From the IMG/VR virus record IMGVR_UViG_3300025162_000148, positions 1 through 28,544 of that record: a DNA stretch of 28,544 bases; one strand, 5' to 3'. Each line of letters begins with the position of its first letter. Within the stretch, counting starts at the first letter, position 1. Both the position numbers and the translations under genes were made by a program. Positions 1,149 to 20,800 of this stretch are shown piece after piece. The DNA is from a virus. The notes beneath the pieces are model-generated. The model did no database searches. It was not told the origin of the DNA and saw only the letters and a list, made by a program, of their open reading frames with translations.

Positions 1149-1155
1149 ATATTAT

Positions 1156-1229: not shown

Positions 1230-1230
1230 G

Positions 1231-1538: not shown

Positions 1539-2162
1539 TTATTGTGTTTGTCCGTAAGCAATATTATATGTTTGTGCGTATTTTTGTTTAATAAATTCTC
1601 TTAATTCATTAAAAAAATTAGGTACTGGATCAGTATCTGGCATTGAGTTTAGTTTATTTACTGCGAATTCTATGAATTCATCTTCAATTCTATCATCCAA
1701 TAAAACAGAAACTTCTGAATCAATATTTAATAGTTGCATAAATCCTGTTGGTGTTTTGGGTGCTGCTTTTGTTTTCGGTCCAAGTAATTTCTTAAAAACC
1801 TTCCAAGTATCATGTCCAGTAGATGCAGCACCTGCACCGCCCATTGCAACACCACCAGCAACAGCAGCTAACGCTCCACCAGTTCCAATTGTTCCAGCAA
1901 CAAAGCCAGCAACACCTATTAATCCAACGACACATTTTAAAACGTCCACACCTGAACTTTTTGCCTTAGCAAGTGCTTCTTCTTTACTTGCTGAATGTTC
2001 ATAAATATTAATTGCTTCTCTCAATTCGCCAACACTTAATGTGTTATCATCAATAAATGAAGGGTTTCTTCTGTTTGGTGTAGGTGCTGCCATCTCCTTA
2101 ATAATAAAATCGGGGTTAACTCTATGCATTACTTCAAACAATCTTTCTTTATTGTTTTTCAT
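1539..2162 (-). CDS. Predicted virion protein with N-terminal capsid-signal-like module (207 aa)
   Basis: The N-terminus MKNNKERLFEVMHRVNPDF matches the module shared by five proteins in this window. An IKE tripeptide follows at residues 21-23, a T4-type prohead-protease consensus. Past that, an acidic/helical segment (SVGELREAINIYEHSASKEE) leads to a Gly/Ala/Val-rich hydrophobic stretch at about residues 75-115, which could form one or two membrane helices or a membrane-active segment. The C-terminal part (from about 140, LLNIDSEVSVLL onward) is ordinary soluble alpha-helical sequence. No enzymatic family recognised. It is second in a two-gene leftward operon, 7 nt after the 2170-2550 gene. 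I infer it is carried in the capsid; a membrane-active role at DNA entry is possible but unproven. Confidence 0.7.
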   Translation of the reverse strand: MKNNKERLFEVMHRVNPDFIIKEMAAPTPNRRNPSFIDDNTLSVGELREAINIYEHSASKEEALAKAKSSGVDVLKCVVGLIGVAGFVAGTIGTGGALAAVAGGVAMGGAGAASTGHDTWKVFKKLLGPKTKAAPKTPTGFMQLLNIDSEVSVLLDDRIEDEFIEFAVNKLNSMPDTDPVPNFFNELREFIKQKYAQTYNIAYGQTQ

Positions 2163-2169
2163 GGTAATT

Positions 2170-2550
2170 TTATTTAAATCCCATTTTCATCATCATATCA
2201 CCAACAACTTGTTTAACCTTCATAATGCTTATTGCTGGGTTTTCTGGTTTATATCCCAAGCCAGAAAACCAAACTCTAAATGCTTCAGGAAATTCTGTTG
2301 CTGTATTAATCCGTTTACTTGCACTTTGAACAGTCGAAGCATTCTGTGTTGCCCTACTCAATGTTTTGACATCTGAAGGCTGATTTGGCATTGCTGGTTG
2401 TGTTGGTTGTACAGGTGCTGAACCAATAGGTGATTGTGCTGATGTTGTACCAATTTGTGATGCCTCATCGATTATGTTTGATTGGAATGTTGGGTCTATT
2501 TTAGATAACATTTCAAAAAGCATTTGTTTTGTATTTTCTTTGTTTTTCAT
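2170..2550 (-). CDS. Predicted virion protein with N-terminal capsid-signal-like module (126 aa)
   Basis: The start MKNKENTKQMLFEMLSKIDP carries the shared module, in a slightly divergent form (MLFEML instead of RLFEVM). An IDE tripeptide follows at residues 27-29. Next comes a Pro/Gln/Ser-rich linker (about 33-58). A compact C-terminal part follows, containing SRATQNASTVQSA, then TEFPEAFRVWFSGLGY (about 86-101) and a Lys/Met-rich end. No named domain recognised. The ATG at 2550 is favoured by the late-type box 14 nt upstream. It heads the operon with the 1539-2162 gene. The layout of signal, cleavage site, flexible linker and small domain fits an internal head protein, by analogy with T4 internal proteins. 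Confidence 0.7.
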   Translation of the reverse strand: MKNKENTKQMLFEMLSKIDPTFQSNIIDEASQIGTTSAQSPIGSAPVQPTQPAMPNQPSDVKTLSRATQNASTVQSASKRINTATEFPEAFRVWFSGLGYKPENPAISIMKVKQVVGDMMMKMGFK

Positions 2551-2564
2551 TATGAAAATTTATA

Positions 2565-2572
2565 ATAAATAC
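2565..2572 (-). promoter_or_regulatory. Candidate late-promoter box GTATTTAT
   Basis: GTATTTAT on the minus strand, 14 nt upstream of the ATG at 2550, followed by TATAAAT. The same extended form (A-GTATTTAT-TATAAAT) precedes the 6151-4112 gene. Confidence 0.5.
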
Positions 2573-2591
2573 TATATTTATAAACAAAAAA
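2572..2591. repeat. 20-bp direct repeat, copy 2
   Basis: Exact copy of bases 1303-1322. Here its left base overlaps the late-type box upstream of the 2550 gene. Confidence 0.7.
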
Positions 2592-2819
2592 TTGTGTCAC
2601 ATAACATGGCGCAATTATAATCATTATTGTCAAGCATTAAAATTTTACGTAACCACTATCTGGCAATAAAATTTTAAAAATCATTCCCGATTTCCCAGAC
2701 ATAGCCTAATTCATCAATTAAGCAATGATTTTTCACATATAAATACTAACGATATTAATATTTATTGCATTTGTCCATGTTTTGACCGCGCATAAATTAA
2801 AATTATTAAAATATAAATG
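2592..2819. other. Gene-poor divergent region
   Basis: No convincing gene. A minus-strand GTATTTAT box at 2746-2739 points leftward. Behind it are two tiny frames: one coding CLIDELGYVWEIGNDF (with an upstream GTG), and one in the next frame containing KILLPDSGYVKF. They join into plausible protein sequence across a 1-nt frame change near 2680, so this may be the remnant of a decayed gene. The rest is AT-rich with no hairpin terminator that I can see. Confidence 0.3.
2739..2746 (-). promoter_or_regulatory. Candidate late-promoter box GTATTTAT (no clear gene)
   Basis: GTATTTAT on the minus strand inside the divergent region, preceding only the possible gene remnant at about 2735-2640. Confidence 0.3.
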
Positions 2820-2858
2820 GTATTTATGTAAATAATATTTGTGAAAAATAGTATTTAT
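2820..2858 (+). promoter_or_regulatory. Two tandem late-promoter boxes GTATTTAT
   Basis: GTATTTAT occurs at 2820-2827 and again at 2851-2858 on the plus strand, 31 bp apart. The second copy ends 15 nt before the ATG at 2874, the spacing seen at other genes. This argues that the GTG at 2841 and the ATG at 2859 are too close to, or upstream of, the expected transcript start. Confidence 0.45.
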
Positions 2859-2873
2859 ATGAAAATAATAAAA

Positions 2874-3473
2874 ATGATAAATAACGATATAATAAAAATA
2901 ATAACCGAAGAAATTTCAGAATTTGATTTTCTTGGCAATGATAAGTATCAAAAAGAAACCGAATCTATAGATTTACTAAAAAATGAAGAATTTCAAAAGC
3001 AATTCATTTGTGATGCACTTTTAAGTAAGAGCAATATTGGTATTAATATTTATGATTCAAGAATTGGTGGTGATTGGGAGAATGATGCTGAGGATGCATC
3101 AAGGCTTACAATCGAATATATGACAAATATCACGTATCAATATGATAAAGAAAAAGAACCCGTTAAATTTAATTTAGATTTTAGAAGTGATGGAATTCAA
3201 ATAAGCAAAGGAGAGAGAGAGGATTTTGCCACATATGATACACCGGCATATGGTGAAGCATGGTTTAATTATTTTAATTGGGACGATATTGAGGTTAGCA
3301 TGTACACCGATGATGGCGATGATGTTGATTTTATTGCATTTAGAAAAGCACCTGCAAAAATTCAGACATTATTTATTAGACATTTTACTCAAGAATATAT
3401 TGGTGAATACACTGGATTGGAAATTCGTACATCTGAAATGAAAAATAATATTCAAAATACACCATATTGCTAA
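2874..3473 (+). CDS. Conserved-looking hypothetical phage protein (about 199 aa)
   Basis: I start at ATG 2874 (MINNDIIKIITEEISEFDFL) because the promoter box at 2851-2858 overlaps the earlier GTG 2841 and abuts ATG 2859; ATG 2859 remains possible. The protein is acidic and mixed alpha/beta, with an N-terminal helix and the motif FLGNDKYQKE. Its middle (GGDWENDAEDASRLTIEYM, then NITYQYD) looks like strands of a beta-rich domain. The C-terminal helix is rich in Phe, Ile and Tyr. No catalytic motif recognised. It is the first gene of a rightward pair with the cupin-like gene 6 nt downstream. Function unknown; the late-type promoters suggest expression with virion genes. Confidence 0.65.
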   Translation: MINNDIIKIITEEISEFDFLGNDKYQKETESIDLLKNEEFQKQFICDALLSKSNIGINIYDSRIGGDWENDAEDASRLTIEYMTNITYQYDKEKEPVKFNLDFRSDGIQISKGEREDFATYDTPAYGEAWFNYFNWDDIEVSMYTDDGDDVDFIAFRKAPAKIQTLFIRHFTQEYIGEYTGLEIRTSEMKNNIQNTPYC

Positions 3474-3479
3474 TTTGTC

Positions 3480-3896
3480 ATGAATGAGCAAAAAGAAAAA
3501 ATATTAAAAAGAATTGATGAACTTATTGATAAAAGACGAGGAGAATTATTAAAATCGTTTACATTTATTCACGAACTTAATGATGGAATCGTTCTTCGGT
3601 CATTTAACGAATGGAGCAATTGTAGTAATGATAAAGACGTTAAATATATAGTAATTCCCAATAGAAATGATGTTGACGAAATTGTTCTTTTAAACTTTAT
3701 TCCAAAAGGTACAAAACTAGAACGTAAAAATTACTCGCACATTCAATGCATAACTATGTTAAGTGGTAAGATGGAATTAAATATTGGTGAGGAAACCGTA
3801 TTAATTAATAGTTATAGTAAAATAGTTTTAGAGAACGGCGAATTTGGGTGTGTTGCTCTTGAAGACACATATACTGTGACATCTAATAAGAAATAA
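3480..3896 (+). CDS. Cupin-like small protein (138 aa)
   Basis: The first 30 residues are a charged helix (MNEQKEKILKRIDELIDKRR). The second half reads as a short beta barrel: IPKGTKLERKNY, then IQCITMLSGKMELNIGEE, then INSYSKIVLENGEF. The pattern of strand, G-x-x-E/H turns, 'LSGKMELNIGEE' and a late 'VLENGEFGCV' is that of an RmlC-like cupin fold. The metal-binding His/Glu set of true cupin enzymes is not obvious, so a binding or structural role is more likely than catalysis. It follows the upstream gene closely and converges directly on the opposite-strand Cys4 protein, with the two stop codons adjacent and no visible terminator between. Confidence 0.6.
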   Translation: MNEQKEKILKRIDELIDKRRGELLKSFTFIHELNDGIVLRSFNEWSNCSNDKDVKYIVIPNRNDVDEIVLLNFIPKGTKLERKNYSHIQCITMLSGKMELNIGEETVLINSYSKIVLENGEFGCVALEDTYTVTSNKK

Positions 3897-4109
3897 CTAC
3901 CATAATTTTAGATTACATTTAGAATCAGGATTTCTTACTTTTGCTGACATATAACAACCGCATTTCCCACACGATTTACGTCTAGTTTTAAATTGTTTAC
4001 ATTTGTTACTTACGCAAATTTCAATTCTTTTTTTTGCCAATTCCTCTATTTCTGGACTTGAAAATATTAGATTCTTCCACCCCTCGTATATTTCTAATAA
4101 TATGTTCAT
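3897..4109 (-). CDS. Cys-rich zinc-ribbon-like mini-protein (70 aa)
   Basis: The N-terminus MNILLEIYEGWKNLIF is amphipathic. It is followed by a Cys cluster: ICVSNKCKQF (C-x4-C), SCGKCGCYM (C-x2-C-x-C) and a final Cys in DSKCNLKLW. Four or more of these cysteines could bind one zinc. I have the impression that small proteins with this 'YEGWKN...CGxCGCYM.AK' layout are common in large T4-like phages, but no function is established that I know of. Its ATG begins 2 nt after the stop of the 682-codon structural gene upstream, so the two are a tight leftward operon. Confidence 0.7.
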   Translation of the reverse strand: MNILLEIYEGWKNLIFSSPEIEELAKKRIEICVSNKCKQFKTRRKSCGKCGCYMSAKVRNPDSKCNLKLW

Positions 4110-4111
4110 AT

Positions 4112-6151
4112 TTATCGATATATAATTCTCCCGCCTTTGCTTACAACAATATCAGGATTTTGTTTGGATTCTACCAAAGCGTTATGCAATATTTCTGGAG
4201 AAGTTAATGCATTGTTATAAATTCTTAATTTTTGAATCCCACCAATAAAACTTGTGTTGAAATTCTGTTCAATTAATAAATTATTTTTTCTATCATCTTG
4301 TATTAAAACATCTGATGCGGTATATGTGAAATCTTTAATAAACAATGGTTTATCAATGTTAAATTTATCACTGGTTTCAATTAACACCCCAATAAATATA
4401 AAATGTTGACCGCAATTGTCTGGAGTTCTAAAAACACTTTTTATTTTATTCCAAACTCCTTGACCACCAACAATACCATCATGATTAGTGTTACCAGATA
4501 AAATACTTATTACAGGGCTTCCATCACTTAAACTACCAAATTCATTAACAACTGGAAGTCCAGATACCCCATAATACATAACACTGTTTTTATATATATA
4601 CTCATATTCCTGTTTATCGACAAATGGGTGTAAACCAAGTGCTCGTAATTGTTCTATGGTTAAGTTGGACATGGGGTATAAATATTCTGTGTCATAAAGA
4701 ACATTTACATCAGTCGTATTACTATAAGGTAGAATTGAAATTTTATTATTTACCGCATTATCATTATCATCAAGATTTTTAAAGAATTCGTCATCAAAAA
4801 TAGATAAATTTACAGTATAATCCCTATTTGACAATACTGATATTGGGTGACTAAATTTGATAAGGTAAGTATTTCCCGTACCACCAGTATAATTAACACG
4901 CATAACAGAATAATCAAAAGTATTACTATCGGCACTTAACACCAAGTCGGTAACGGGAACATTATTTTCTTCAACAACAAAATTACTATTAATATAGCTC
5001 TTGCTCTGACCACTATATATATTATATGTTTGGTAATCGTAATGCCATGAATGTTTAAGTCCAAACGACCCACCACCCCAACTAATCGAATATGGTACGC
5101 CAATTTGTTTTTCTTTTTGATTATTGAATGGATGAAAATAAAACTCAGGAAAGTTATTTATTATCCAAACAGCCCTACCGTTGACATAAAAGATCATTTT
5201 GCCAGTTCTTTGTTTTGCACAATTAATCAACGCAGGGTCTGTAATAATACTACTTGGTGTGAATGCAATGTCGATTACTGTAAAGCCTGTTGCGGTAATG
5301 ATTGTTGGTGATGAATTGGTTATAATAAGTCCATCATTATTAATATATTTGTACGCTATTTTTCTATCTGAAGTTATTTCAAACGAAATTACATTATTTT
5401 TTATATTATCAATTTCAGGTGCTTCAGAATATACTGTAATTTTATCGTCTTCAGGTAATCTAAATGCTTTTTTTGTTTCTTCTTTTCCCATAAGAGCATT
5501 TAAATAATTATTTTCACTGGTTGTTACACCACTCATGGTTGTTAGTCCAGTAATTGTTTCCCCAGAAAAATATGGGTTATATTTATCTTCAGCACGTGCT
5601 CCCATCATATAAAATATGCCGTGTGATTCGGGATGTAGATATAATACAGTTTCAATTGTTATTCCATTATTATATCTTGCTGGAAACAATTCATAATTAT
5701 ATCCATTTAACTTAAAAAACCCTTGTAAATATCCACCATTAAGATCAAAGTAATATTGGTTGGTATAACCACTAGTAATAGCACTAATTGGGAGATAAAC
5801 AGTATTTATGGTAATGCCACTAGTATTTCCAGTTGTGCCACCACTAGTATTTCCAGTTGTGCCACCACTGGTTTCACCACTAATTACATTGTATCCAACC
5901 CTATACATTGAGAATAAGGTGTCATTTGGTGTAAGTGTAATGCCACCCCACATTTTATTTGTTCTGCCGTTATCAAATTCTGTTAATCCAAAATCAATTA
6001 AATTAATATTATCTGAAATCGCCCCACCCCATTTAGTTAGACTGATTGTTGTCAAACCTGAATTATAGTTAATCCATGATTTATCATTGGTTAAATCTAT
6101 TTGGATTGCCAATTCATCCGTAATTATATCGTTTAAGCATTCTAAATTCAT
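4112..6151 (-). CDS. LamG-like virion surface/tail structural protein (679 aa)
   Basis: I start at ATG 6151 (MNLECLNDIITDELAIQIDL), 18 nt after a late-type box, rather than the in-frame TTG at 6160. The protein is rich in Asn, Thr, Gly, Ser and Tyr and almost entirely beta-type. An early domain (about 1-95) is followed by a low-complexity linker built from an 8-residue tandem unit (SGGTTGNT). Long beta-sandwich-like segments follow, including GKMIFYVNGRAVWIINNFPE and, near the end, IQKLRIYNNALTSPEILHN. The last motif is the classic closing strand of LamG / concanavalin-like jelly rolls, which bind sugars. I infer an adhesin or tail/capsid-surface decoration. The exact location in the virion cannot be told from sequence. 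Confidence 0.7.
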   Translation of the reverse strand: MNLECLNDIITDELAIQIDLTNDKSWINYNSGLTTISLTKWGGAISDNINLIDFGLTEFDNGRTNKMWGGITLTPNDTLFSMYRVGYNVISGETSGGTTGNTSGGTTGNTSGITINTVYLPISAITSGYTNQYYFDLNGGYLQGFFKLNGYNYELFPARYNNGITIETVLYLHPESHGIFYMMGARAEDKYNPYFSGETITGLTTMSGVTTSENNYLNALMGKEETKKAFRLPEDDKITVYSEAPEIDNIKNNVISFEITSDRKIAYKYINNDGLIITNSSPTIITATGFTVIDIAFTPSSIITDPALINCAKQRTGKMIFYVNGRAVWIINNFPEFYFHPFNNQKEKQIGVPYSISWGGGSFGLKHSWHYDYQTYNIYSGQSKSYINSNFVVEENNVPVTDLVLSADSNTFDYSVMRVNYTGGTGNTYLIKFSHPISVLSNRDYTVNLSIFDDEFFKNLDDNDNAVNNKISILPYSNTTDVNVLYDTEYLYPMSNLTIEQLRALGLHPFVDKQEYEYIYKNSVMYYGVSGLPVVNEFGSLSDGSPVISILSGNTNHDGIVGGQGVWNKIKSVFRTPDNCGQHFIFIGVLIETSDKFNIDKPLFIKDFTYTASDVLIQDDRKNNLLIEQNFNTSFIGGIQKLRIYNNALTSPEILHNALVESKQNPDIVVSKGGRIIYR
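5817..5864 (-). repeat. 24-bp tandem repeat coding SGGTTGNT
   Basis: Two identical 24-bp units (5817-5840 and 5841-5864), with a partial third, encode the Gly/Thr-rich linker of the structural protein. Because the unit keeps frame, copy number could vary without breaking the gene. Confidence 0.8.
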
Positions 6152-6169
6152 TTTATACAAGAATTTATA

Positions 6170-6177
6170 ATAAATAC
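6170..6177 (-). promoter_or_regulatory. Candidate late-promoter box GTATTTAT
   Basis: GTATTTAT on the minus strand, 18 nt upstream of ATG 6151. It sits back to back with the rightward box at 6202-6209, making a divergent late promoter pair. Confidence 0.5.
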
Positions 6178-6201
6178 TGCAGTACTTTAATTAATAATCC
6201 C

Positions 6202-6209
6202 GTATTTAT
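6202..6209 (+). promoter_or_regulatory. Candidate late-promoter box GTATTTAT
   Basis: GTATTTAT on the plus strand, 30 nt upstream of ATG 6240. It is the only such box ahead of the 6240-9202 gene run. Confidence 0.5.
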
Positions 6210-6239
6210 ATAAAATAATAAAATTAAACGTTTTGTATT

Positions 6240-7619
6240 ATGATTAAAGATAGTAAACAAAGATTGTTTGAGATGATGAATAGGGTGGGTGGAATGCCAA
6301 TAAAAGAAAACGTATTTGAATCACCTATTATTCAAGAATCTGGTGGACTATCTGATTTACCACCCGGGTTTTCAGCAGAAGATTTTGTTCCACTTAAAAC
6401 CGATATTGAATTAACTCCTTGTCGAATTGGTACTAACGAAGAAGTCGAAGTTGTTGATAGAAGCGTGGATGAGGATATGATTGATAAAGTAAAAACTGGG
6501 GAAATAGACCCAATGATATTACAACCAGAATTTAAGAAAAAATTGGCTGCTTATCTTAGGGGCGATAAACAGGGAATTGGCACTGCGGGAAGAATACATT
6601 CGGGAACACTCAAAGACATTATGGTTGATTTAAACAATGTCGTGGATAGGAAAACAGGTGAATATATTGATCCAACAAAATTAACAGGTAAAAATAGAAA
6701 ATATTATAACGTTGAGGATGAAGATATTCCAAATTTTGATTTATATAAATTAAAAAAAATATTAATGACAATACCTAATGAAGAACAATTATTAGGTAAA
6801 AATCAAAAAATGGCTAAAAGTAATTTTTATAATATTTCTTTACCTGCTTTAAAATCACTAATATACCACGAAAATACCGATAAATTTTACGTAATTACTA
6901 CATGTAGTAAGGCAAAAGAATGTATTGCATGGTGTTATGCTCAAATGGGAAATTACGTACAATACGATGCACCAATCAGACTTAAAATGCAAAAGTTGAA
7001 TTATTTGATAAATCATTGGGATGAATGGAAAAATAGAGTAATTGCAAGAATTCAACACGTAAATAAATATAAAAAAAGGGATACTGAAACCGTTGTTAGA
7101 TGGCATGATTCTGGTGATTTCATTTCACCAGATTATTTGGAAATTGCATTTGATATTGCTAGAGCAACTCCAAATGTTTATCATTATGCATATACCAAAG
7201 AAGTTTCAATGGTAAAAGGAGCAAATGTTCCACCTAATTTTGAGTTTAAATTTTCTCTTGAGGGACATGAAAGGAAAGAAATTACTCCCGAAGACCCAAC
7301 AGGTGTTGTTGCCCCAGAAGATTTGTTTAAAGAATTTTGGAAAGAAAAACCAGAAGGTATTGATGATAAAACTTGGAAAGCGAGTGGTATGTGGAATTTC
7401 ACACCTGAAGAAAAAAATATTGTGAGAGACAGAATTGCTCGACATTATGGAATTAAAGACCCAAATCAAATTTTATGGCATGATGATTACATAAAATTAC
7501 CACACGATAGAACTCAAGAACATGAGAGAAAATGGTATGTGATTGGCAAACCGGGGGATACTGATATTCCAGCATCAAGAAAAGATACTATGGGCATTTT
7601 CAATTTATTACACAAATAA
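6240..7619 (+). CDS. GP88-like protein with capsid-signal-like N-terminus (459 aa)
   Basis: The start MIKDSKQRLFEMMNRVGGMP is the shared module; IKE (21-23) and IQE (31-33) follow as candidate prohead-protease sites. The core domain has cysteines at 222, 228 and 232 (C-x5-C-x3-C, in TTCSKAKECIAWCYAQ), then RWHDSGDF (287-294), then HYAYTKE (315-321). This order (Cys cluster next to WCYA, WHDSGDF, YAYTK) resembles the mycobacteriophage gene-product-88 (GP88) family. That family has been likened to iron-sulfur/radical-SAM-type proteins, but its reaction is not known to me. The C-terminal third (about 330-459) is charged, with several His/Asp residues. It leads a rightward operon with the acidic protein and the nucleotidyltransferase. 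If the signal works, this enzyme is packaged and delivered into the host. Confidence 0.75.
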   Translation: MIKDSKQRLFEMMNRVGGMPIKENVFESPIIQESGGLSDLPPGFSAEDFVPLKTDIELTPCRIGTNEEVEVVDRSVDEDMIDKVKTGEIDPMILQPEFKKKLAAYLRGDKQGIGTAGRIHSGTLKDIMVDLNNVVDRKTGEYIDPTKLTGKNRKYYNVEDEDIPNFDLYKLKKILMTIPNEEQLLGKNQKMAKSNFYNISLPALKSLIYHENTDKFYVITTCSKAKECIAWCYAQMGNYVQYDAPIRLKMQKLNYLINHWDEWKNRVIARIQHVNKYKKRDTETVVRWHDSGDFISPDYLEIAFDIARATPNVYHYAYTKEVSMVKGANVPPNFEFKFSLEGHERKEITPEDPTGVVAPEDLFKEFWKEKPEGIDDKTWKASGMWNFTPEEKNIVRDRIARHYGIKDPNQILWHDDYIKLPHDRTQEHERKWYVIGKPGDTDIPASRKDTMGIFNLLHK

Positions 7620-7653
7620 AAATATTAATATATAAAATTAAAAACAATTAATT

Positions 7654-8127
7654 ATGAAAAAAGATAGTAGAACAAGGTTATTCGAAGTCATGGGTAGACT
7701 CGATAAAACATTCAAACCTAGATTGAATGAAGAATTTGAACAGGCTAATCCAGTTGCATTTGCTCAACCAATGGGTGGAGAAGAAACTCCTGAAAAGGAA
7801 GAATTAACTGTTGAGGAAAAATATGAGGAATTGAAAAGCAAGGTTGAGGAATTGTATGCTATGATTCATGGTGAAGAGTCTGAAGAAGAACCAGAGGGTG
7901 AAGAATCTGAAGAAGAACCAGAAGAAGAACTTACCGAAAGAAAAAAATGGAATTTCGAAAAGAAAAAAGGTGAAAAGGATGATGATTCTGAAGAACATGA
8001 AGAAAATGAAACACCAGACGAAGAAAAAAAGGAACATGAAAAAGGTGGTTACGAATTTGGTAAAAAAGAACAAAACGAATCAAAACCCAAAATTCCAGTA
8101 AACAATATTGCAAAAGTAGGTAAATAA
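7654..8127 (+). CDS. Highly acidic core-like protein with capsid-signal-like N-terminus (157 aa)
   Basis: The start MKKDSRTRLFEVMGRLDKTF is the clearest copy of the shared module. LNE at 24-26 is the candidate cleavage tripeptide. The rest is extremely Glu/Lys-rich: a predicted coiled coil at about 50-72 (TVEEKYEELKSKVEELYAMI), then a tandem GEESEEEPE unit twice, then mixed charged sequence with many Glu, Asp and Lys. No catalytic residues. Small acidic proteins that are packaged and cut by the maturation protease are typical of T4-like prohead cores (for example gp67), and I suggest that role by analogy only. It starts 34 nt after the GP88-like gene, without its own promoter box. Confidence 0.75.
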   Translation: MKKDSRTRLFEVMGRLDKTFKPRLNEEFEQANPVAFAQPMGGEETPEKEELTVEEKYEELKSKVEELYAMIHGEESEEEPEGEESEEEPEEELTERKKWNFEKKKGEKDDDSEEHEENETPDEEKKEHEKGGYEFGKKEQNESKPKIPVNNIAKVGK

Positions 8128-8135
8128 TAATTGTA

Positions 8136-8957
8136 ATGGTTGAGAATAAAAAATTACCACGTTCGTGGTCAAGTAGATATTGGTCAAGGAACAACATTTC
8201 CGATACATTAAAGGAAGCAGTTGAGCCTAATAGTGTTGATGTGTCATCAATACAAATGCACGATGATTTAAATCCGCTTATTTGGGACGATAACGAAAAA
8301 TTGAAAACTGAAATTAGAAAAGTATTGTTGTTGAATGCAAAAAGATTTGTTGGGTTTTCGGATATTGAGAATCTTAAGTATAATGACATAATACTTACAG
8401 GAAGTCTTGCCAATTTTAATTATAATGAGAATTCAGATTTAGATGTACACATTATACTTGATTTTAGTCAAATTTCGGAGAATAAAGAATTTGTGGGCGA
8501 TTTTTTAAAACTAAAAAAACAATTGTGGACAGAAAATCTTCCAATTCAAGTAAAGGGACATGATGTAGAAATGTATTTTCAAGATAGCGGAGAACCTCAT
8601 CATTCAACAGGTGTTTATTCATTAATGAAAGATGAGTGGGTTAGAAAACCCACCAAAAAGATTATAAACATTGATACTGCGGATGTTCAATTAAAATCGT
8701 CAGATTTTATGAATGCAATTGATGATTTGGGGTCAAATAAAAACCAGAAAAATTTTTTAACTCGATACGATAAATTAAAAAATAAAGTTAAAAAATATAG
8801 ACAAAGTGGACTTGATAAAAACGGAGAGTTTTCAGTTGAAAATCTTGTGTTTAAAATATTAAGAAATACTGGATATTTAGAAAAAATGATTGAATTGAAA
8901 AATAATTATTTGACTCAAGAATTGAGCATTGACGAAATTTTAAATTCAGAACAATGA
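8136..8957 (+). CDS. Predicted nucleotidyltransferase (273 aa)
   Basis: The segment from G89-S90 to D101-L-D103 (GSLANFNYNENSDLDVHI) is the signature of the polymerase-beta-like nucleotidyltransferase fold: GS on the first strand/helix and a D-x-D metal pair. HDVEMYF (142-148) supplies the third acidic residue. Such enzymes transfer NMP to a protein, RNA or small molecule; the substrate cannot be read here. An N-terminal stretch of about 80 residues (WSSRYWSRNN, then DDLNPLIWDDNEKL) and a helical C-terminal half (RYDKLKNKVKKYRQ) flank the catalytic core. It lacks the shared N-terminal module. It overlaps the next gene by the ATGA sequence, so translation is coupled. Start ATG 8136 follows the acidic gene by 8 nt. 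Confidence 0.8.
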   Translation: MVENKKLPRSWSSRYWSRNNISDTLKEAVEPNSVDVSSIQMHDDLNPLIWDDNEKLKTEIRKVLLLNAKRFVGFSDIENLKYNDIILTGSLANFNYNENSDLDVHIILDFSQISENKEFVGDFLKLKKQLWTENLPIQVKGHDVEMYFQDSGEPHHSTGVYSLMKDEWVRKPTKKIINIDTADVQLKSSDFMNAIDDLGSNKNQKNFLTRYDKLKNKVKKYRQSGLDKNGEFSVENLVFKILRNTGYLEKMIELKNNYLTQELSIDEILNSEQ

Positions 8958-9202
8958 AAAGATTCATAGTAAAAAAAGAACAATTGGTCGAATACTTTGA
9001 AAATAAAAAAACCAATAAAGTTTTCTACGATATATTAGAACGTTTGAACATGAATGTGAGTTTGTTAACAGAAAATGTTTCACATGAAAAAGTCAACCAA
9101 TCTGTTATTGATGATTATCAAAGAAAAAATTTAATTACTCCTAAAGTTTATGAAATGTTGATTAAGAACAAAATAATAAACGAAGATTACAAAATATTGT
9201 AA
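8954..9202 (+). CDS. Small hypothetical protein coupled to the nucleotidyltransferase (82 aa)
   Basis: The ATG at 8954 overlaps the TGA of the nucleotidyltransferase gene (ATGA). The protein is Lys/Asn/Glu-rich and probably all helical (MKRFIVKKEQLVEYFENK, VFYDILERLNMNVSLL, VYEMLIKNKIINEDY). No family recognised. The 1-nt coupling suggests a partner or regulator of the upstream enzyme. The stop codon lies in the loop of a hairpin at 9191-9217. Confidence 0.65.
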   Translation: MKRFIVKKEQLVEYFENKKTNKVFYDILERLNMNVSLLTENVSHEKVNQSVIDDYQRKNLITPKVYEMLIKNKIINEDYKIL

Positions 9203-9217
9203 ATTCAATATTTTTTT
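9191..9217 (+). terminator. AT-rich hairpin terminator
   Basis: AAAATATTG (9191-9199) pairs with CAATATTTT (9206-9214) around a 6-nt loop holding the stop codon, followed by more T. The stem is weak, but position and T tract fit the end of the 6240-9202 operon. Confidence 0.5.
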
Positions 9218-9229
9218 ACTCTTAATTAA

Positions 9230-9237
9230 GTATTTAT
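9230..9237 (+). promoter_or_regulatory. Candidate late-promoter box GTATTTAT
   Basis: GTATTTAT on the plus strand, 43 nt upstream of ATG 9281, the longest leader among the boxes. It restarts transcription right after the 9191-9217 terminator. Confidence 0.5.
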
Positions 9238-9280
9238 AAAAAAATGTAAAGTAAATAATAATATTTTTAAAAATATAAAA

Positions 9281-11599
9281 ATGAAAAATCACACTTCGGA
9301 AGATGCGTTTTATGAGAGAATGAGAAATTTAGCGGAAGTTAATAAAACCTCAATAAAAGAATCACAAAATCGTACACTAGGTACTTTAATTGATTATAAG
9401 AGAGCAACAGATGGTGTTGCTTATGGTATTATCAAAGAAAATCACCACTATTATGTAAAAAAAGGTGGTATTAAAAATGATCCAAATGTTGCAGATTTTG
9501 CATATATTGGTGGATTGGGAAATATAACAAGTTTCCAATATAAATCATTGGCAGAAGCAGATAAACAAAGAAATATGCTGTTTCACACAATCAACGAAGC
9601 AGTTTCGTTGAGACCAAGTAATACTGGTAGCAAAAAAAGAATAAATGAAGACAGAGCAGGTGAAGAAATTGATAATGCAGAAGGAAAACTAGGGGATTTG
9701 GATGCAGCAACTGCTGCTGCCGATAGCGCAGGTGTTCCACTTGCTCCAGACGGTGGTGATGAAGAAATGGCTGCTGGATTACAAGCCGAACCCACAGGTG
9801 AAGAAATGCCAGACATGGGTGGTGAAGAAGTACCTGATATGGGTGATGAAGAAGAATTACCAGAACCAGAGGGTGGTGAAGATATGGGCGGTGAGGAAGT
9901 TCCCGAAGTTCCAGCTGATGATGTTAACAAAGAACTTGAGAAAGGAATTGGCAAAATAACAAATACTATCAGGAAAACCGAATTAGAACCAGCACAAGTT
10001 AAATCATATCTCAAATCATTCATCCAAGCATTCAAAGACAAACTTCCTGAACTTGAGATTGAAGAAAGAAAAGATATTGCTAATTTAATCATCAAAATTG
10101 TTCCGCCTGAAGATATGGAGGATTTGAGTGCAAGTGTTGAAGATACTGACGGAGAAGAGGTTGAGGAAGGAAAATGTTCAGAATGTGGCAGATTTACAGA
10201 ATATGCCAAATCAAGAGGATATAATTCTGCAGAATCACTTATGGAATGTGGTGAAGAAGAAGTAACTAATTTAGTTAGTGGTTATGCAAACGCACATAAC
10301 GATGGAATGAATGATGGTGATGTTGACGGTGTTGCATTGGTAATTAAAATTGTTAACCCTGAAATATTAAATAAACTAAAAGGAGATTATGGTCATAATG
10401 ATTATGCACAAAAATTAGAACCACAAGTTAATGCAATGTCCGAGTCAACCGATGAGGAAAACATTGCAAAATTAAACGAATTGTTCGGTGGTTTAGGTGC
10501 TTTAGGTAGAGCTGCAGGTTCAGCTATTGGCAAAGGTGTTAGTGCTGTTGGTAAAGGCATTGGTAACGCTGCTACAAGTGCTGGACAAGCAGTTGGTGGT
10601 GCGGTTCAAAGAGGTGCACAAGCAGTTGGTAACGCTGCAACAAGTGCTGCACAGGCAGTTGGTCAAGCAAGTCAAAGAGTAGGTCAGGCGGTACAACAAG
10701 GTGCTGAAAAAGTAAGTCAAACATATCACGGTGGTGAGGTTTCTGGTGAAGTAAAAAGGCTAGAAGGACTTGCTAATGATTTGGGTTCACAAGTTGCTGC
10801 ATTAAATACGAGACTAAAAAAAGCTGGACAAGAAGAAGTGAACGTACAAAAATTAATTGCAGGCATCACCAATCAAGTTAGATCAGGTAAAGGAGCTAGT
10901 GTTGCAGGAACAACTGCGGGTGCTGGAATACAAAAAGAAAATACTGACCCAGCATATACCGAAACACAACCATTATATGAAGAAGATGATGATTTAGAAG
11001 GAATTGAAGGTGGTGAAGATATTAAGGACGATGAAAATGGAGAAAATGATAATTTTTTCGCACCTGCTTCACAATCATTAGGTGCTGCTGTTGCTAAACC
11101 AGATGGTGCTCCAACAACAATAAGCGTTACTTCTCAAAATGGAACTAAAGTTGATGTTGGTTTAAATGAAGTGTTTAAACAACTAAGAAGAGCAATGAAC
11201 GAAGCCAAAACAAAGAAACCTTCACAAGGTTTATCAAAAGAAAAGAAATCTGATGTTGTTAAGGCAGCAAAAAAAGGTGAAGACATTGGTAAAAAGGGTA
11301 AGGGTTTTGAAAAAGTAGCAGATAAAGCAGCTAAAGAATATGGTAGTAAAGAAGCTGGTAAAAAAGTAGCTGCTGCTGCAATGTGGAAAAATGTTAAAAG
11401 AGAAGGCAAAGACGAAAAGAAACCACTTAGCGAAAGTGAAGCTAAATTAAGAAAATATATTCGCAGTCGCCTTATGGAAAATGCTGGAACGAAAAAAGCA
11501 ACATTGAATGAAAATCAAAAATCTGCAACATTAAAAAAACTTGATGAAGCAATTGACAAACAATTCCAATTGTATGGTAATAGTTTTAAGAAAAAATAA
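9281..11599 (+). CDS. Large low-complexity prohead-core/virion-like protein (772 aa)
   Basis: The N-terminus MKNHTSEDAFYERMRNLAEV is a diverged form of the shared module, with IKE at 25-27. Residues about 30-105 form a small globular-looking domain (LGTLIDYKRATDGVAYGI, KENHHYYVKK, FAYIGGLGNI). Next is an acidic Gly/Glu/Met/Pro repeat region (about 120-216, units like GGEEVPDMGDEE), then a helical segment. A Cys pair C299-x2-C302 with a further Cys near 324 may bind metal. Residues about 402-480 are an Ala/Gly/Gln amphipathic repeat (AAQAVGQASQRVGQAVQQ). A Lys-rich tail ends in KLDEAIDKQFQLYGNSF. No enzyme motif. Size, charge and repeats suit a prohead core, scaffold or DNA-associated internal protein. 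It has its own promoter box and a strong terminator, so it is a single-gene unit. Confidence 0.7.
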   Translation: MKNHTSEDAFYERMRNLAEVNKTSIKESQNRTLGTLIDYKRATDGVAYGIIKENHHYYVKKGGIKNDPNVADFAYIGGLGNITSFQYKSLAEADKQRNMLFHTINEAVSLRPSNTGSKKRINEDRAGEEIDNAEGKLGDLDAATAAADSAGVPLAPDGGDEEMAAGLQAEPTGEEMPDMGGEEVPDMGDEEELPEPEGGEDMGGEEVPEVPADDVNKELEKGIGKITNTIRKTELEPAQVKSYLKSFIQAFKDKLPELEIEERKDIANLIIKIVPPEDMEDLSASVEDTDGEEVEEGKCSECGRFTEYAKSRGYNSAESLMECGEEEVTNLVSGYANAHNDGMNDGDVDGVALVIKIVNPEILNKLKGDYGHNDYAQKLEPQVNAMSESTDEENIAKLNELFGGLGALGRAAGSAIGKGVSAVGKGIGNAATSAGQAVGGAVQRGAQAVGNAATSAAQAVGQASQRVGQAVQQGAEKVSQTYHGGEVSGEVKRLEGLANDLGSQVAALNTRLKKAGQEEVNVQKLIAGITNQVRSGKGASVAGTTAGAGIQKENTDPAYTETQPLYEEDDDLEGIEGGEDIKDDENGENDNFFAPASQSLGAAVAKPDGAPTTISVTSQNGTKVDVGLNEVFKQLRRAMNEAKTKKPSQGLSKEKKSDVVKAAKKGEDIGKKGKGFEKVADKAAKEYGSKEAGKKVAAAAMWKNVKREGKDEKKPLSESEAKLRKYIRSRLMENAGTKKATLNENQKSATLKKLDEAIDKQFQLYGNSFKKK

Positions 11600-13662: not shown

Positions 13663-16600
13663 ATGAGACGATATTTATCTGATGAAGAAAAAGAAGCAGA
13701 AAAAATAAAAGAATTCGAAGACTTAGTACCCGAACATACCCCAGCAATACCTCTCGACCTTCAAAGAGAAAAGGAAAAAGAAACAGCCAGAAAAAAAGCA
13801 GATGAACTAAGAAAAAAAACTGGTAAAGTAGAAGCATACGTTTACACCAAAAACGGAGTCACCAAAAAAGCAAGTGAATTAACAATACCCGAACAAGAAT
13901 TTGAATATATTCACTGTGCAACAGACCCAATATACTTTATCGAAACCTATTTAACAGTCTTTGACCAAACACAAGGCACTGCTGGTCAAATAGTTCCATT
14001 TAGATTATTCGATTTTCAGAAAGACTTGATTAACACATATCTGGATAGTAGATTTACAATTGCAAATAAATATAGACAGGCGGGAGTCTCCACAACCACC
14101 TGTGCATACATAGCTTGGTATATAATGTTTAACGCAAATAGACAAGTCGCAATCATTGCAGATAAATTAGAAACAGCACGTGATGAAATTATGAGCGATG
14201 TGGTTTTATTTATTGACTGCTGTCCAGCGTGGTTGAGACCTAAAACTGGTAGAGAAAGTAACGAAAAATTCAAAGACACTCAAAAATTAAAAATTTATGA
14301 TAACAATTCAAGATTAGGTGCATTTTCCGCAAAAGGTGGTCTTCGTGGTATGACACCGACTTTGATTTTTTGGGATGAAACTGCGTGGACAGAAAAGGGA
14401 GATAAATTTTGGACTGCTGCTAAACCAACGTTGGGTACTGGTGGTGGCGCTATCATGGTGTCTTGTGTAACTAAAGATACTTATTTATTTACCGATAAAG
14501 GAATTAAACAAATCAAAGATTTTATTTCAAACGAAGAGTTGGGTGCACACATCATTGAAGATTATAATATTCTAGGTAAAGATAAATTAAGAAAAGGTAA
14601 CATATTTTTCAATAATGGATTTGTAGATACGTTAAAAATTAAAACTACATTCAGCGAACTCGAATCAAGTTGTAATCATAAGTACTGGGCATATTGCGTA
14701 AAAGAAGCTAAATACGACTGGTATAAGGCATCTGAACTAGAGCTGGGAGATTATGTGTCAATTCAATATGGAATGAATATATGGGGCAATAATGATGATT
14801 GTAGCGACTTTAAACCAACTTTAACAAGAAATACGAAAAATGTATTTAAACCTACAGAAATTAATCAAAATTTAGCATATTTCATTGGATTATATTTAAG
14901 CGAGGGTTATATGCGCAACGTTAATCGAAACGGAAAAAGACACACAACCCAAATAACATTAACGTGCGGAGATTCATTGTCACATGTTTTTGATGAAATA
15001 GGGTTTAAATATTATTTCGATGGAATTCACTATACGATAAACTCAAAAAATATTGGTGAATTTTTTGAATACTTGGGATTTGATTTATCAAGAAAAGCAC
15101 CTCAGAAAATTATACCTTCTCGTTTACTTGAAATGAGTAGAGAAAACACTATTGCAATGATCCAAGGAATAATGGATGGTGATGGTTGGTCAACATTCAA
15201 AAAATCCAATAAAATTAGTGTTGGAATTGGGTTATCTTCATTTGAAATGATTAATCAAATTAGGATGTTATTGGGAAATTTTGGTATTTTAACCGATTAT
15301 AGAAAATCAACAACACCTCCAACAAAAAAAGTTAAAGTAAGTTCGGTTGTATATACCATTGTTACAACAAATTCGTTTGCTATTAAATATTTTACTGAAA
15401 TTGGTTTTAGGTTTGAAAGAAAACAAATTAAAATGAGTATGTTTAATTCAGAATTAATTAAACATAGTGGTGTTGTTGATAACATACCCAACGGTAAGGA
15501 AATTGCATACAAAATATATAACGAAATTAAATATTATGGAAAATTACAAGAATTACAATCAAAAGGAATAAAAATTGAAAGTTGGATTAATAGAAAAAAA
15601 CAAGATTCTTTACCTTCATCAAGACAGACCTTATTAAAATTTGTTGAATTGGAAAAAAATAATATTAGTAACGAATTATTAAATGAAATTTCGCCAATTT
15701 TAAATAAAAATCAATACTGGACAAAAATAAATTCAATCGAGAAATCACAAAACTATACATATGATTTCTCGTTACCAAATGAACCCAATGAAGAAAATGA
15801 TTTTCATCATTCATTAATTTACAATCAAGCAATTACTCATAATACGCCTTCTGGTCTCGATGCAGTTTTTTATAAGCATTTTGACGGTGCACGCAAAAAA
15901 GAAAATAGTTTTGTTGCCGTTGAGTTATGGTGGTATAATGACCCCAGATATAACAAAGACTTGTGTTGGATAAAGAATAAGAGCAAACAAAATGAAATAA
16001 GATTTCAAGACGAAAATTGGAGTAAGGAGAGAAGAATTCAATTAATGGATGATGGTTGGGAAGCAAGTTCACCTTGGTTTGAAGAACAAGTAAGAGATTC
16101 AAATGGGGATATGCGTAAGATAGCCCAAGAGTTATTATGCAGTTTTTTGGGGTCAGGTGATAATTTCATTGCTGAAGAATATTTAAAAAGGGTCCAAGAA
16201 GAAGAAATTAAAACACCAATTCGTCAAGAATACATGGATAATAATATGTGGATTTGGGAAGACCCATTGGCTGGTGAAGACTATATCATGGCAATTGATG
16301 CGTCTTCAGGACACGGTGAAGATAACTCAACAATTAACATGTTAAAAACAATTGAGATTATTGAAGAAAGAGTAATTAAAAAGGGTGACAAAATAAAAAA
16401 GGTTAAAATCAAAAGACATAAAGTTGAACAAGTTGCCGAATATTACGGAAAAGTAACACCACAAATGCTTTCTGAAATTGCATATCAATATGGAAAAAGA
16501 TATAATGATGCATATTGTGTTGTTGATATCACAGGTGGACTTGGTATACAAACTATTGAGAAATTACTTGAAACTGGATACGAAAGTGTCCACTATGCAG

Positions 16601-17106
16601 AGGTAACACATAAACCTTCAAGAGATAGACTTCAGGGATATATTAAAAAAGGACATAAAACAATGGGTGATGGTGCTACAATGGTGGTGGATTTGATCCC
16701 CGGTTTCTTTATCGGTAACAATCGTGCTTCCGTCCTTCTTGAACTGCAAAGAGCCGTTCACTTGGGTGATGTAATTATTAGATCAATTAGGCTGTTGAAT
16801 GAGCTAAAAACGTTCGTTACAATTGCTGGAAATCGGGTTGCGGATCACAAGCGATCCTTCCACGATGATTCAATCATGGGACTTTCCATTGGTCTATATG
16901 TTCTAAATTTTGACATGGCTAGATTTAAGCAAAGTAAAGGGATTTCGGAAAAATTAATTAACGCACTTTTAACAAATAATGACATAAGCGAAATGGAAAG
17001 AAATGGTGCACCCAAAAATAAACCGATGATGTCACCAAGCAATTCATCTAATTTAAATCCATATATTGCAAACGCATGGCTATTTAGTGGTTTAGAGAAG
17101 AAATAA
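13663..17106 (+). CDS. terL: Large terminase subunit (gp17-like) with an in-frame intein
   Basis: This is the DNA-packaging motor ATPase/nuclease. The ATPase domain shows Walker A-like RQAGVST (138-144) and Walker B LIFWDE (234-239). The coupling motif AIMVS...TPSG is split by an intein at residues 268-727. After splicing, the protein would be 687 residues, near the usual size of T4-type TerL. The RNase H-like nuclease domain follows: MAIDASSGHGED (D879), YCVVDITGG (D955) and HDDSIMG (D1068/D1069). These supply the acidic metal-binding cluster that cuts concatemeric DNA at packaging. The N-terminal 90 residues are charged and helical. Start ATG 13663 lies 14 nt after a late-type box. The last 23 bp overlap, antisense, the end of a homing endonuclease gene. 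Confidence 0.95.
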   Translation: MRRYLSDEEKEAEKIKEFEDLVPEHTPAIPLDLQREKEKETARKKADELRKKTGKVEAYVYTKNGVTKKASELTIPEQEFEYIHCATDPIYFIETYLTVFDQTQGTAGQIVPFRLFDFQKDLINTYLDSRFTIANKYRQAGVSTTTCAYIAWYIMFNANRQVAIIADKLETARDEIMSDVVLFIDCCPAWLRPKTGRESNEKFKDTQKLKIYDNNSRLGAFSAKGGLRGMTPTLIFWDETAWTEKGDKFWTAAKPTLGTGGGAIMVSCVTKDTYLFTDKGIKQIKDFISNEELGAHIIEDYNILGKDKLRKGNIFFNNGFVDTLKIKTTFSELESSCNHKYWAYCVKEAKYDWYKASELELGDYVSIQYGMNIWGNNDDCSDFKPTLTRNTKNVFKPTEINQNLAYFIGLYLSEGYMRNVNRNGKRHTTQITLTCGDSLSHVFDEIGFKYYFDGIHYTINSKNIGEFFEYLGFDLSRKAPQKIIPSRLLEMSRENTIAMIQGIMDGDGWSTFKKSNKISVGIGLSSFEMINQIRMLLGNFGILTDYRKSTTPPTKKVKVSSVVYTIVTTNSFAIKYFTEIGFRFERKQIKMSMFNSELIKHSGVVDNIPNGKEIAYKIYNEIKYYGKLQELQSKGIKIESWINRKKQDSLPSSRQTLLKFVELEKNNISNELLNEISPILNKNQYWTKINSIEKSQNYTYDFSLPNEPNEENDFHHSLIYNQAITHNTPSGLDAVFYKHFDGARKKENSFVAVELWWYNDPRYNKDLCWIKNKSKQNEIRFQDENWSKERRIQLMDDGWEASSPWFEEQVRDSNGDMRKIAQELLCSFLGSGDNFIAEEYLKRVQEEEIKTPIRQEYMDNNMWIWEDPLAGEDYIMAIDASSGHGEDNSTINMLKTIEIIEERVIKKGDKIKKVKIKRHKVEQVAEYYGKVTPQMLSEIAYQYGKRYNDAYCVVDITGGLGIQTIEKLLETGYESVHYAEVTHKPSRDRLQGYIKKGHKTMGDGATMVVDLIPGFFIGNNRASVLLELQRAVHLGDVIIRSIRLLNELKTFVTIAGNRVADHKRSFHDDSIMGLSIGLYVLNFDMARFKQSKGISEKLINALLTNNDISEMERNGAPKNKPMMSPSNSSNLNPYIANAWLFSGLEKK
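14464..15843 (+). mobile_element. LAGLIDADG intein in TerL (460 aa)
   Basis: The intein begins at Cys268 (CVTKDTYLFTDKGIKQ) and ends ITHN before Thr728, so splicing joins AIMVS to TPSGLDAVF. Block B is SSCNHKYW and block F is YTYDFSLPN. Two dodecapeptides, FIGLYLSEG (407-415) and IQGIMDGDG (500-508), mark a LAGLIDADG homing endonuclease between the splicing halves. All standard class 1 residues are present: Cys1, His and Asn at the C-end, and Thr+1. The insertion point is the ATPase coupling motif, an essential site where loss by imprecise deletion is lethal. Confidence 0.92.
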
Positions 17107-17893: not shown

Positions 17894-20800
17894 ATGGCAG
17901 AGCAAGGAAAAAAGGGAACTATATATCAAGAACTAAATGCACTTTTAAATCTTGATGGATTTGGATTTCAAGACCAAACACAAGCAGCTAATTCAATAAT
18001 ACCAACCAAAGAGACCAAGGTTATTATTAAAGGTAATAGCCCAGAAGAAATTCAAAGAAAAGGTTTAGAATTACAACAAAAAAAAGAACTTCAAAGTAAA
18101 TTCTTTAGAACTACGGATAGAGGATTCCAAAAGGCTCTTCAGTATGAGGCAGCAAGACTGCCTGCATACATCGATTATGAAGGCATGGAATACTATCCAA
18201 TCATCTCTTCTGCCTTAGATTTATTCATGGAAGAAGCCACTTCAATTGGTTATGACGGTAAGATGTTGAATATTTATTCCAGTAAGGAAAGAATAAAATC
18301 ATTATTAGAAGAATTTTTCTATGATATTGTTAATGTAAATGTTAATCTTCCATTTTGGACAAGGAATTTGCCTATTAAACATGATAGCATAATTCCTTTA
18401 TTAAACGGTGAAGAAATTACAATAAAGGAATTATCTGAAAGATTAAAAAACAATCCAAATGATGAAATTTGGACATATTCTGTTCAAGACCACACCAAAA
18501 AAATTGTTGCAGGTAAAGTAATTTGGTGTGATTTAACTAGGGAAAATAGTGAAATTTTGAAAGTTACTTTTGATGATGGTACTTATATTGAAACAACTCC
18601 AGATCACGAGTATTTGCTCAGGAACGGCACGTATGTGAGGGCAGATGAACTTAAGGAAGGTGTTAGCTTAATGCCTTTTTACACTAATTTAAGCATAAAA
18701 AATAAAGATGGTATTGTTGGATATGAAAAGGTATTTAATCCAAATAGTAACTATTTTAAATTTACTCATAGATTTGTTAGCGAAGAATGTGTTACCGATT
18801 CATCTAAAGAATCAAACGATAATGAAAAATATTGTACACATCACATCGATTTTAATAAAAAAAATAACAATCCTTCGAATTTATCAAGAATGACTATTTC
18901 TGAACATTTTAAATATCATAATGAACATGCAAACATAATATTACAAAGGGAAGACGTTAAGAAAAACAGAATGTTGGGTATAGATAAATATTTGCGCTCC
19001 GAAAAAAGAAAAAATAGGTTATCAAACGAAATGTCTGGAATTTATCCAAAATATTTTAATGAATATAATAATAGTTCACTACATGAAGAACATGATGTTA
19101 TTCGTAAAAATAGAATGAATGAATTATGGTCTAACCAAGAATATCAAAATATGGTTAAAAATAAAATGACTTTAATTATTGATGACCATTGTTTAGACAT
19201 TATTGTTAATTACATTAAAAACAGTCAAAAGTATGTCGATACCAATAAATTGACTCAGCTTTTAAAAGCCGATAATAATTTTATGGGTCGTTTCACCGAA
19301 ATTAATAACCATTTTAATAAAAATAAGGATTTATATAAATCAATTAATACAAGAACCTTAAATTTTTTAATTAAAAGAAAAACGAATAAAAATTATTGTG
19401 ATTTTAATTTGGAAATTAATCCGAATATAATTAATCAAACAATTTTTAAAAGAACGTATGCCATTTCTAAAACAAAGCAACAGAAAAAAGAACTGGAAAC
19501 AATAATCAATCACAAAGTATTATCAATAGAAAGAATTGCAGAAAAACATGATGTTTATTGTATGGAGGTTGTTGGTAAAAATGGTGAGCAAGATAGACAT
19601 AATTTTCCTGTGTGTAGTAAAAATGAAAATGGTGTGCATACAAGAAATGGTGTGTTTGTTTCAAATTGTAAATATGGTGATAATTTCATATTACTTTACG
19701 GTGAACCGAAAAAAGGCATTTCACATGTGAAGCAAATGGTTAATTATGAAATTGAAAGATTTGAAAGAATTCAAAACGGAAAACCAAGTGTTAAGTTTAA
19801 GGAAAGAATGACTGGTGATGAATTTAATACTTTTGAAATTGCGCATTTTAGATTACTTGGTGATGATAAATATTTACCATATGGGTCATCAATTTTAAAT
19901 AAAGTTAGAAGGGTATTTAGACAACTCGTTATGGCAGAAGATGCGATGTTAACATATCGTATTATTCGTGCTGGAGAAAAGAAGGTATTTAAAATTGATG
20001 TTGGAAACATTGACGAAGATGATATTGAGGATTATATTTATAAAGTAGCGACCAAATTTAAAAAAACTGCTAATGTTTCTCCAAATGACGGTCAAATAGA
20101 TTATCGTTTCAATATGTTGGGGAATGACGAAGATTATTTCCTACCAATGAGGAATTCAAATTCTCAAACGGGTATTGATACATTGGCAGGGGCATGTTTG
20201 GCTTTAAACACAAATATAGATTTACTTGATGGCAGAAGTATTACGTTAAATGACATTATTAACGAATTTAACGAGGGTAAAGAATTATGGACATATTCCA
20301 TTAATCCCGAAAACGGATTGATTGTACCCTCTCCAATTACATGGGCGGGTATTACTAGAAAGAATACTGAGGTATTAAAAATTACTCTAGATAATGGCGA
20401 ATCGATTACATGTACTCCAGACCATAAATTTCCAACTAAATTTAATGGGACTAAAGAAGCTAAAGATCTAAATGTAGGTGAATCAATGTGGGCGTTTAAT
20501 AAAAAATTTGAGAAAATAAAATCAAGCACAAGCAATGGAAAATACGATAAAGAATATGAAATGATTTACGATCATTCCACCAATGATTGGATATACACTC
20601 ATAGGATGGTTAATAATTACATGAAAAGCAACAATGTTAACAATGATTTTATTTTTGATGAAAGACATGTTAACGATGATAAATATGTAACACATCATGT
20701 TGATTTTAATCGTTATAATAATAATCCAAATAACTTGGTTTCAATGTCACATATTGACCACTTTAAATATCATTCATATTTAGGAATTAAAAACATGTCT

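Follow-up and report, generated by a model that had tools for sequence, protein, structure and literature searches.

Why should otherwise unrelated proteins of one phage begin with nearly the same peptide? The question is raised by a virus record of 28,544 bases (IMGVR_UViG_3300025162_000148; "the window" means this whole stretch), a fragment of a larger genome, in which a reading made from the sequence alone had noted a common N-terminal module followed by an [LI]xE site on five proteins, starting at 2162 (minus strand), 2550 (minus strand), 6240, 7654 and 9281, and had taken it for a packaging address. The five open reading frames (ORFs) and their N-termini all lie where they had been placed, and the [LI]xE sites were borne out as well. 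The module, here called class A, is most probably a capsid-targeting sequence (CTS) with a built-in removal site, which would work like that of phage T4 but is unrelated to it in sequence. The packaging reading is strengthened by the recurrence of module and site across related genomes, the S77 protease of these relatives, a boundary at the E of the site, selection acting on the peptide, an upstream DNA element (GTATTTAT), and orthologs that occur with and without the tag. The tags of the five proteins are:

2094..2162, minus strand: class A tag, residues 1-23 (MKNNKERLFEVMHRVNPDFIIKE) of protein 1539-2162, site IKE ending at residue 23; hidden Markov model (HMM) E = 3e-10
2464..2550, minus strand: class A tag, residues 1-29 (..KQMLFEMLSKIDPTFQSNIIDE) of protein 2170-2550, site IDE ending at residue 29; HMM E = 3e-8
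6240..6308, plus strand: class A tag, residues 1-23 (MIKDSKQRLFEMMNRVGGMPIKE) of the GP88-family protein 6240-7619, site IKE ending at residue 23; HMM E = 5e-12
7654..7731, plus strand: class A tag, residues 1-26 (MKKDSRTRLFEVMGRLDKTFKPRLNE) of the acidic protein 7654-8127, site LNE ending at residue 26; HMM E = 4e-7, truncated start call
9281..9361, plus strand: divergent class A-like tag, residues 1-27 (MKNHTSEDAFYERMRNLAEVNKTSIKE) of protein 9281-11599, site IKE ending at residue 27; profile-profile E = 4e-4

The tagged proteins of the window

That all five proteins share one module held for four of them, which a profile HMM built from relatives matched at the N-terminus (E 4e-7 to 5e-12), and only in a divergent version for the fifth. 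The class A profile HMM alone gave no match to protein 9281; when the N-termini of its family were compared with the module profile, hhalign gave E = 4e-4 at a probability of only 35% over 28 columns, and six unrelated control families gave E values of 0.15-0.83. Because the family profile matches at 4e-4 as against 0.15 or worse in the controls, 9281 is probably a divergent member of class A. An [LIV]xE triplet occurs in all 16 distinct N-termini listed for its homologs, a set chosen partly for that triplet. Further along the same protein, residues 645-707 share 75% identity with a segment from an uncultured phage of 735 kb (LR756501), to which the remaining protein has no match.

Behind the tags, the bodies differ. 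Protein 1539-2162, with a Gly/Ala-rich hydrophobic stretch in its body, has homologs with the same tag in two related genomes (G001 and G013), and the cargo families of proteins 2170-2550 and 7654-8127 have seven and 11 tagged members, respectively. In the tag of protein 6240, R8, L9, F10 and E11 are invariant among 12 homologs. Its body belongs to the Pfam family GP88 (103 bits, curated cut-off 24.4); the earlier mention of an enzyme among the five refers to this protein and was loose. A structure search with it returned no match at E <= 0.001, the best match having E = 0.14. In the AlphaFold2 model, confidence is below 50 for the greater part of residues 1-78, and residues 6-17 form a helix, which is weak evidence consistent with a flexible leader before a folded domain.

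Recurrence of the module in related phages

Proteins 9281 and 6240 served as queries against viral contigs to identify relatives, and 15 whole or nearly whole related records of up to 365 kb were retrieved. Two loci (L037 and L038) had matched protein 6240 through residues 1-24 only, i.e. they carry the module on an unrelated protein. The class A consensus is M-K-K-D-S-K-Q-R-L-F-E-V-M-x-[RK]-[LV]-x-x-x-F-x-x-x-[LI]-x-E, with a length of 20-29 residues. The N-terminal profile HMM detected 78 copies at protein starts (E < 1e-3) and three that were called internal, two of which are due to wrong start calls and one of which is a true second copy. By clustering of the bodies, the 82 non-redundant copies, among which 9281 was placed by hand, fall into 32 unrelated cargo families. 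The motif search that the sequence-only reading had proposed thus found the module again, together with [LI]xE, across the genomes on proteins that are otherwise unrelated. In an independent scan of 2.9 million viral contigs, a degenerate DNA pattern for RLFEVMGR had 53 matches, 50 of them at ORF residue 6-9 and three in frames that end at the end of the sequence; nearly all of the 50 are recognisable tags, apart from one spurious frame of 18 amino acids and a few that are clipped by contig ends. A chance origin of the module is excluded. The five largest records carry three to seven class A copies each, and the tagged genes are dispersed across the genomes.

The cargo of this N-terminal peptide, common to otherwise unrelated phage proteins, includes an ART-PolyVal ADP-ribosyltransferase domain, a cupin, DUF3293, a kinase, DUF5661, GP88, a weak metallopeptidase match, short acidic proteins, and many proteins without recognised domains. 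With enzyme-like domains such as the kinase, the ADP-ribosyltransferase and proteases of the SprT/HExxH type among the tagged proteins, the peptide could be thought of as a pro-region that has no targeting job and holds enzymes inactive until the protease removes it. The same peptide, however, stands on many types of cargo, including short acidic proteins and kinases that have no cleavage site, and the inhibition of 32 different families by one peptide is hardly plausible, which makes such a pro-region very improbable.

The [LI]xE site and the end of the tag

The peptide ends in a site of the prohead-protease type, (L/I)-X-E. A triplet [LI]xE follows the tag in 75 of the 82 non-redundant copies. 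Among other proteins, 27.7% of N-terminal windows contain it, and among later windows in the tagged proteins 16% do; shuffles gave a mean count of 22.8 and a maximum of 33. If every cargo family has one vote, 28 of 32 have the site (p ~3e-12). Its distance from the LFE of the tag is variable (mostly 11-22 residues), and the triplet is kept regardless. The middle residue is N in 47 of the 75 copies, as compared with 11.5% in the proteome. When members of different cargo families are aligned on the E, identity is 0.40 at position -1 and 0.12, 0.08 and 0.05 at +1, +2 and +3, the background being 0.062; the common sequence thus falls to background directly after the E of the site.

Protease, capsid protein and scaffold of the relatives

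All ten tag-carrying records with a length of 98 kb or more encode a protease of the T4 gp21 type, as had been expected along with the tags. Peptidase_S77 matches above the Pfam cut-off (27 bits) reach 85 bits and were obtained in 13 of 16 and 10 of 12 related records (23 of 28, fragments included). An intein-like insert splits the S77 protease gene in three genomes (G006, G007 and G010; loci L051, L049 and L050). Capsid proteins of the gp23 type were found in 12 of 16 related records, and they have [IL]NE at about residue 60, approximately the expected cut position; gp23 of T4 is cleaved at residue 65. The proteases themselves have [LI]xE near residue 35, and in both proteins the triplet sits where the removal of a propeptide would be expected. 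Isolated close relatives were not found, the best capsid identity being below 40%.

Between protease and capsid gene lies an ORF at the position that the scaffold has in T4. In the main clade, this ORF contains 3.5-4.1 [LI]xE per 100 residues, in two outlying records 1.1-1.6, and in the proteome the value is 1.4. The scaffold of T4 is cut into many fragments by gp21 at the (L/I)-X-E motif (PMC9026906). Among 22 untagged ORFs with LFE...[LI]NE, nine are capsid proteins, whose propeptide has QLFENQ...MINE directly before the predicted cut. The pattern is suggestive only, and a homology of class A to the capsid propeptide was not accepted, since the profile comparison was not significant (E = 0.066).

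It could be argued that the module docks proteins on another particle or complex, such as the tail, the baseplate or an intracellular assembly, and that [LI]xE is a mere peptide end. Targeting to the head is indeed an indirect conclusion, the tagged genes are dispersed over the genomes, and some copies are site-less. A mere peptide end would not readily explain that the triplet is kept at varying distance and is the same as the [LI]xE in the capsid protein, the protease and the scaffold of the same phages, or that its middle position prefers N far above background, as at the capsid site. Docking elsewhere is therefore considered unlikely.

Selection on the peptide and presence or absence of the tag

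In pairs of tags from the same genome, codons for identical residues agree in 57.8% (0.578) of the cases, and 56.9% (0.569) is predicted from codon usage. As the agreement equals the expectation, it is the peptide that is under selection and not the DNA, and a recently copied mobile DNA repeat is ruled out. At one locus, the tag is present in some phages and absent in others: a polynucleotide-kinase-like gene (phrog_505; AAA_33) has the same neighbours in four phages, and its product carries the tag in G001 and G009 but not in G002 and G013, where the protein starts at the point at which the tag ends in the tagged ortholog. Similarly, members of cargo family F5 are tagged in G007 and G014 and untagged in G005 and G009.

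These data also bear on the idea that the tags reflect shared ancestry only, i.e. a duplicated family whose bodies diverged or were replaced, with a functionless N-terminus left behind. The copies within one genome are clearly related, as such a history would demand, but the peptide is conserved while synonymous positions are saturated, conservation ends directly after the E, and tagged and untagged orthologs occur at the same locus with a clean junction. Of the explanations considered here, ancestry without function is given the least credence and is extremely improbable.

An upstream element shared with head genes

The tagged genes often have a promoter-like element in front of them, which in the window lies at the following positions, counted in nucleotides (nt) from the start codon:

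2565..2572, minus strand: GTATTTAT promoter-like element, starting 22 nt upstream of the ATG at 2550
6202..6209, plus strand: GTATTTAT promoter-like element, 38 nt upstream of the ATG at 6240
9230..9237, plus strand: GTATTTAT promoter-like element, 51 nt upstream of the ATG at 9281

In the related phages, 34 of 85 tagged genes have GTATTTAT at a distance of 20-29 nt upstream, as compared with 252 of 2375 others (p = 7e-12). Within 120 nt upstream it precedes 21 of 26 portal genes, 22 of 32 genes of the large terminase subunit (terL), seven of nine scaffold genes and 19 of 21 genes of the 9281 family, and none of eight helicase genes. An A-rich stretch follows the element, which mostly lies 22-24 nt before the ATG of the tagged gene. 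The T4 late promoter TATAAATA was also considered, but it is not enriched upstream of tagged genes, whereas GTATTTAT is.

A second class of tags

Blind clustering of N-termini revealed a different peptide, typically [IL][IV][NK]EE[IV]xx[FY][LD], which is unrelated in sequence to class A and is here called class B. The same clustering recovered tags in G003 and G007; the CTS of T4, with 10 residues, was not reported at the thresholds used, and a motif search found IPII and IPIII. The class B profile detected 47 N-terminal copies in 16 families, one of which is a SprT-like protease family. [LI]xE occurs within the first 26 residues of 42 of the 47 (control 31%), and 26 of the 47 have GTATTTAT 20-29 nt upstream. 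In the window, a sixth tagged protein, which the sequence-only reading had not included, belongs to this class:

2859..2909, plus strand: class B tag (MKIIKMINNDIIKIITE) of protein 2859-3473; class B HMM E = 8e-7

The N-terminus of this protein is IIKIITEEISEF, its true start may be at 2841 or slightly downstream, and its body family (B0) has 17 tagged members in the relatives.

A proposed route into the head

Taken together, a new protein with the N-terminal peptide of 20-29 residues would bind to the prohead core (the scaffold) by a short helix around RLFExM and would thereby be enclosed during head assembly. The S77 protease, which would also trim the capsid protein and degrade the scaffold, would then cut after the E of [LI]-x-E, and the mature cargo, freed inside the head, could enter the host with the DNA. 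Core binding, cleavage, retention in the head and injection are inferred, by analogy with T4 and from the sequence evidence above.

Several observations weigh against this route. Strict [LI]xE is missing in seven of the 82 copies. In four of them an E is still present, either behind a different hydrophobic residue or shifted in register (IVNE, VQE, MVE, MNE); the other three, namely the two tagged kinases and the ART protein, are entirely site-less. The case for protein 9281 is less strong than that for the other four. One tag is truly internal, as a tagged G003 protein contains a second tag, KSKVRLFEVMQRVTPNFTGKALNE, followed by LNE; in this protein (L166 6156-7325; G003 26156), the second complete tag and its LNE are at about residue 217, and it resembles two fused tagged proteins. 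The copies are related by descent and their counts are not independent. The 28,544 bases of the window contain no detected S77 protease, so that the expectation of such an enzyme was answered by the larger relatives and not by the fragment itself. The cleavage position in the capsid proteins of the relatives is taken from T4. In T4 and in three other isolated phages, the module profile found nothing convincing. Finally, GTATTTAT is probably the late promoter of this phage group, judging by its position and gene set only.

It is also conceivable, though doubtful, that there is a packaging system with two addresses, the long tag A (RLFExM...[LI]NE) and the short tag B (IINEEIxxFLNE), unrelated in sequence, each of which would bring its own set of cargo to the prohead core. 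Tags would then be gained and lost at fixed loci, some site-less copies would keep their cargo tethered, and class A may imitate the capsid propeptide.

If class A is indeed a head address, a simple sequence rule predicts head-carried and possibly injected proteins for a lineage of uncultured T4-like phages of 200-365 kb, among them proteins of the ADP-ribosyltransferase type, a kinase, protease-like proteins, a cupin, and many unknown ones. Since Ip1-3, internal proteins of T4, act against restriction (PMC12373910), the tagged unknowns are candidates for counter-defence or take-over proteins. It would also follow that the sequence of a removable head address of the T4 style differs between lineages, and another peptide with which proteins can be loaded into phage heads would be at hand.

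Other genes of the window

The head-gene neighbourhood follows downstream of the tagged genes:

13663..17106, plus strand: terminase large subunit with an apparent intein, 1147 amino acids as compared with 679 in the G001 homolog; GTATTTAT upstream
17894..22510, plus strand: portal protein, apparently with two inteins, 1538 amino acids as compared with 661 in the G001 homolog

A homing endonuclease (12190-13623, plus strand; phrog_3339, E = 3e-69) is encoded between the 9281 gene and the terminase gene, and an untagged nucleotidyltransferase-like protein (8136-8957, plus strand; phrog_36119, E = 3e-50; weak NTP_transf_2 match) between tagged genes. Consecutive tRNA genes for Gln, His and Pro are found at 1075-1304 (minus strand).

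Comparison with known systems

In the open-access papers searched, no description was found of the class A sequence, its lineage, the number of cargo families or class B. A close counterpart is the CTS of T4 (IPI, IPII, IPIII and Alt), which like class A is N-terminal, stands on otherwise unrelated proteins, ends in (L/I)-X-E and is served by a protease of the gp21 family (PMC9026906, PMC3012670, PMC12373910). The internal proteins of T-even phages are diverse and have only the leader in common (PMC3012670, PMC12373910). In IPIII, the first 10 residues are enough for packaging. Targeting depends most on residues 4 and 7 and processing on residues 8 and 10; with Asp at position 10, targeting still occurs but processing does not (PMC9026906). 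Alt is a packaged ADP-ribosyltransferase (PMC9026906) that is trimmed at ITE-6 (PMC5694885), and a domain of this enzyme class is found also among the class A cargo. In contrast to the T4 peptides of about 6-19 residues, class A has 20-29 residues, is spread over 32 cargo families across its clade, and in some copies lacks the cleavage site. The HMMs of both classes match no T4 internal protein, so that class A, although it would work in the same way, is not counted among the T4 internal-protein type (MKTYQEFIAE); the layout of class B is like that of the short T4 peptide.

In the giant phages SPN3US and phiKZ, a gp21-related protease likewise removes N-terminal propeptides from head proteins by cleavage after E, but unlike in class A the site is A-X-E or S/A/G-X-E and several of the propeptides exceed 100 residues (PMC5694885). 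Flavobacterium phage immuto (NC_055915, L188) encodes an S77 protease and three proteins (at 1803, 117631 and 118632) with a shared N-terminal peptide, M-x-x-F-[DN]-L-[KR]-[KS]-F-L-x-E-N-[KR]-L-T-x-N-[SA]-[KQ]-[LI]-[LI]-[KN]-E, followed by divergence; this peptide differs in sequence from class A, occurs on only three proteins of an isolated phage and is known from sequence alone. In P1, which belongs to a phage lineage other than that of the class A carriers, the N-terminal 30 residues of DarB suffice to bring a reporter to the capsid and are likewise an N-terminal signal (PMC9024508). As the leader of the T4 internal proteins and the signal of DarB have been described, an N-terminal head address is a known kind of element.

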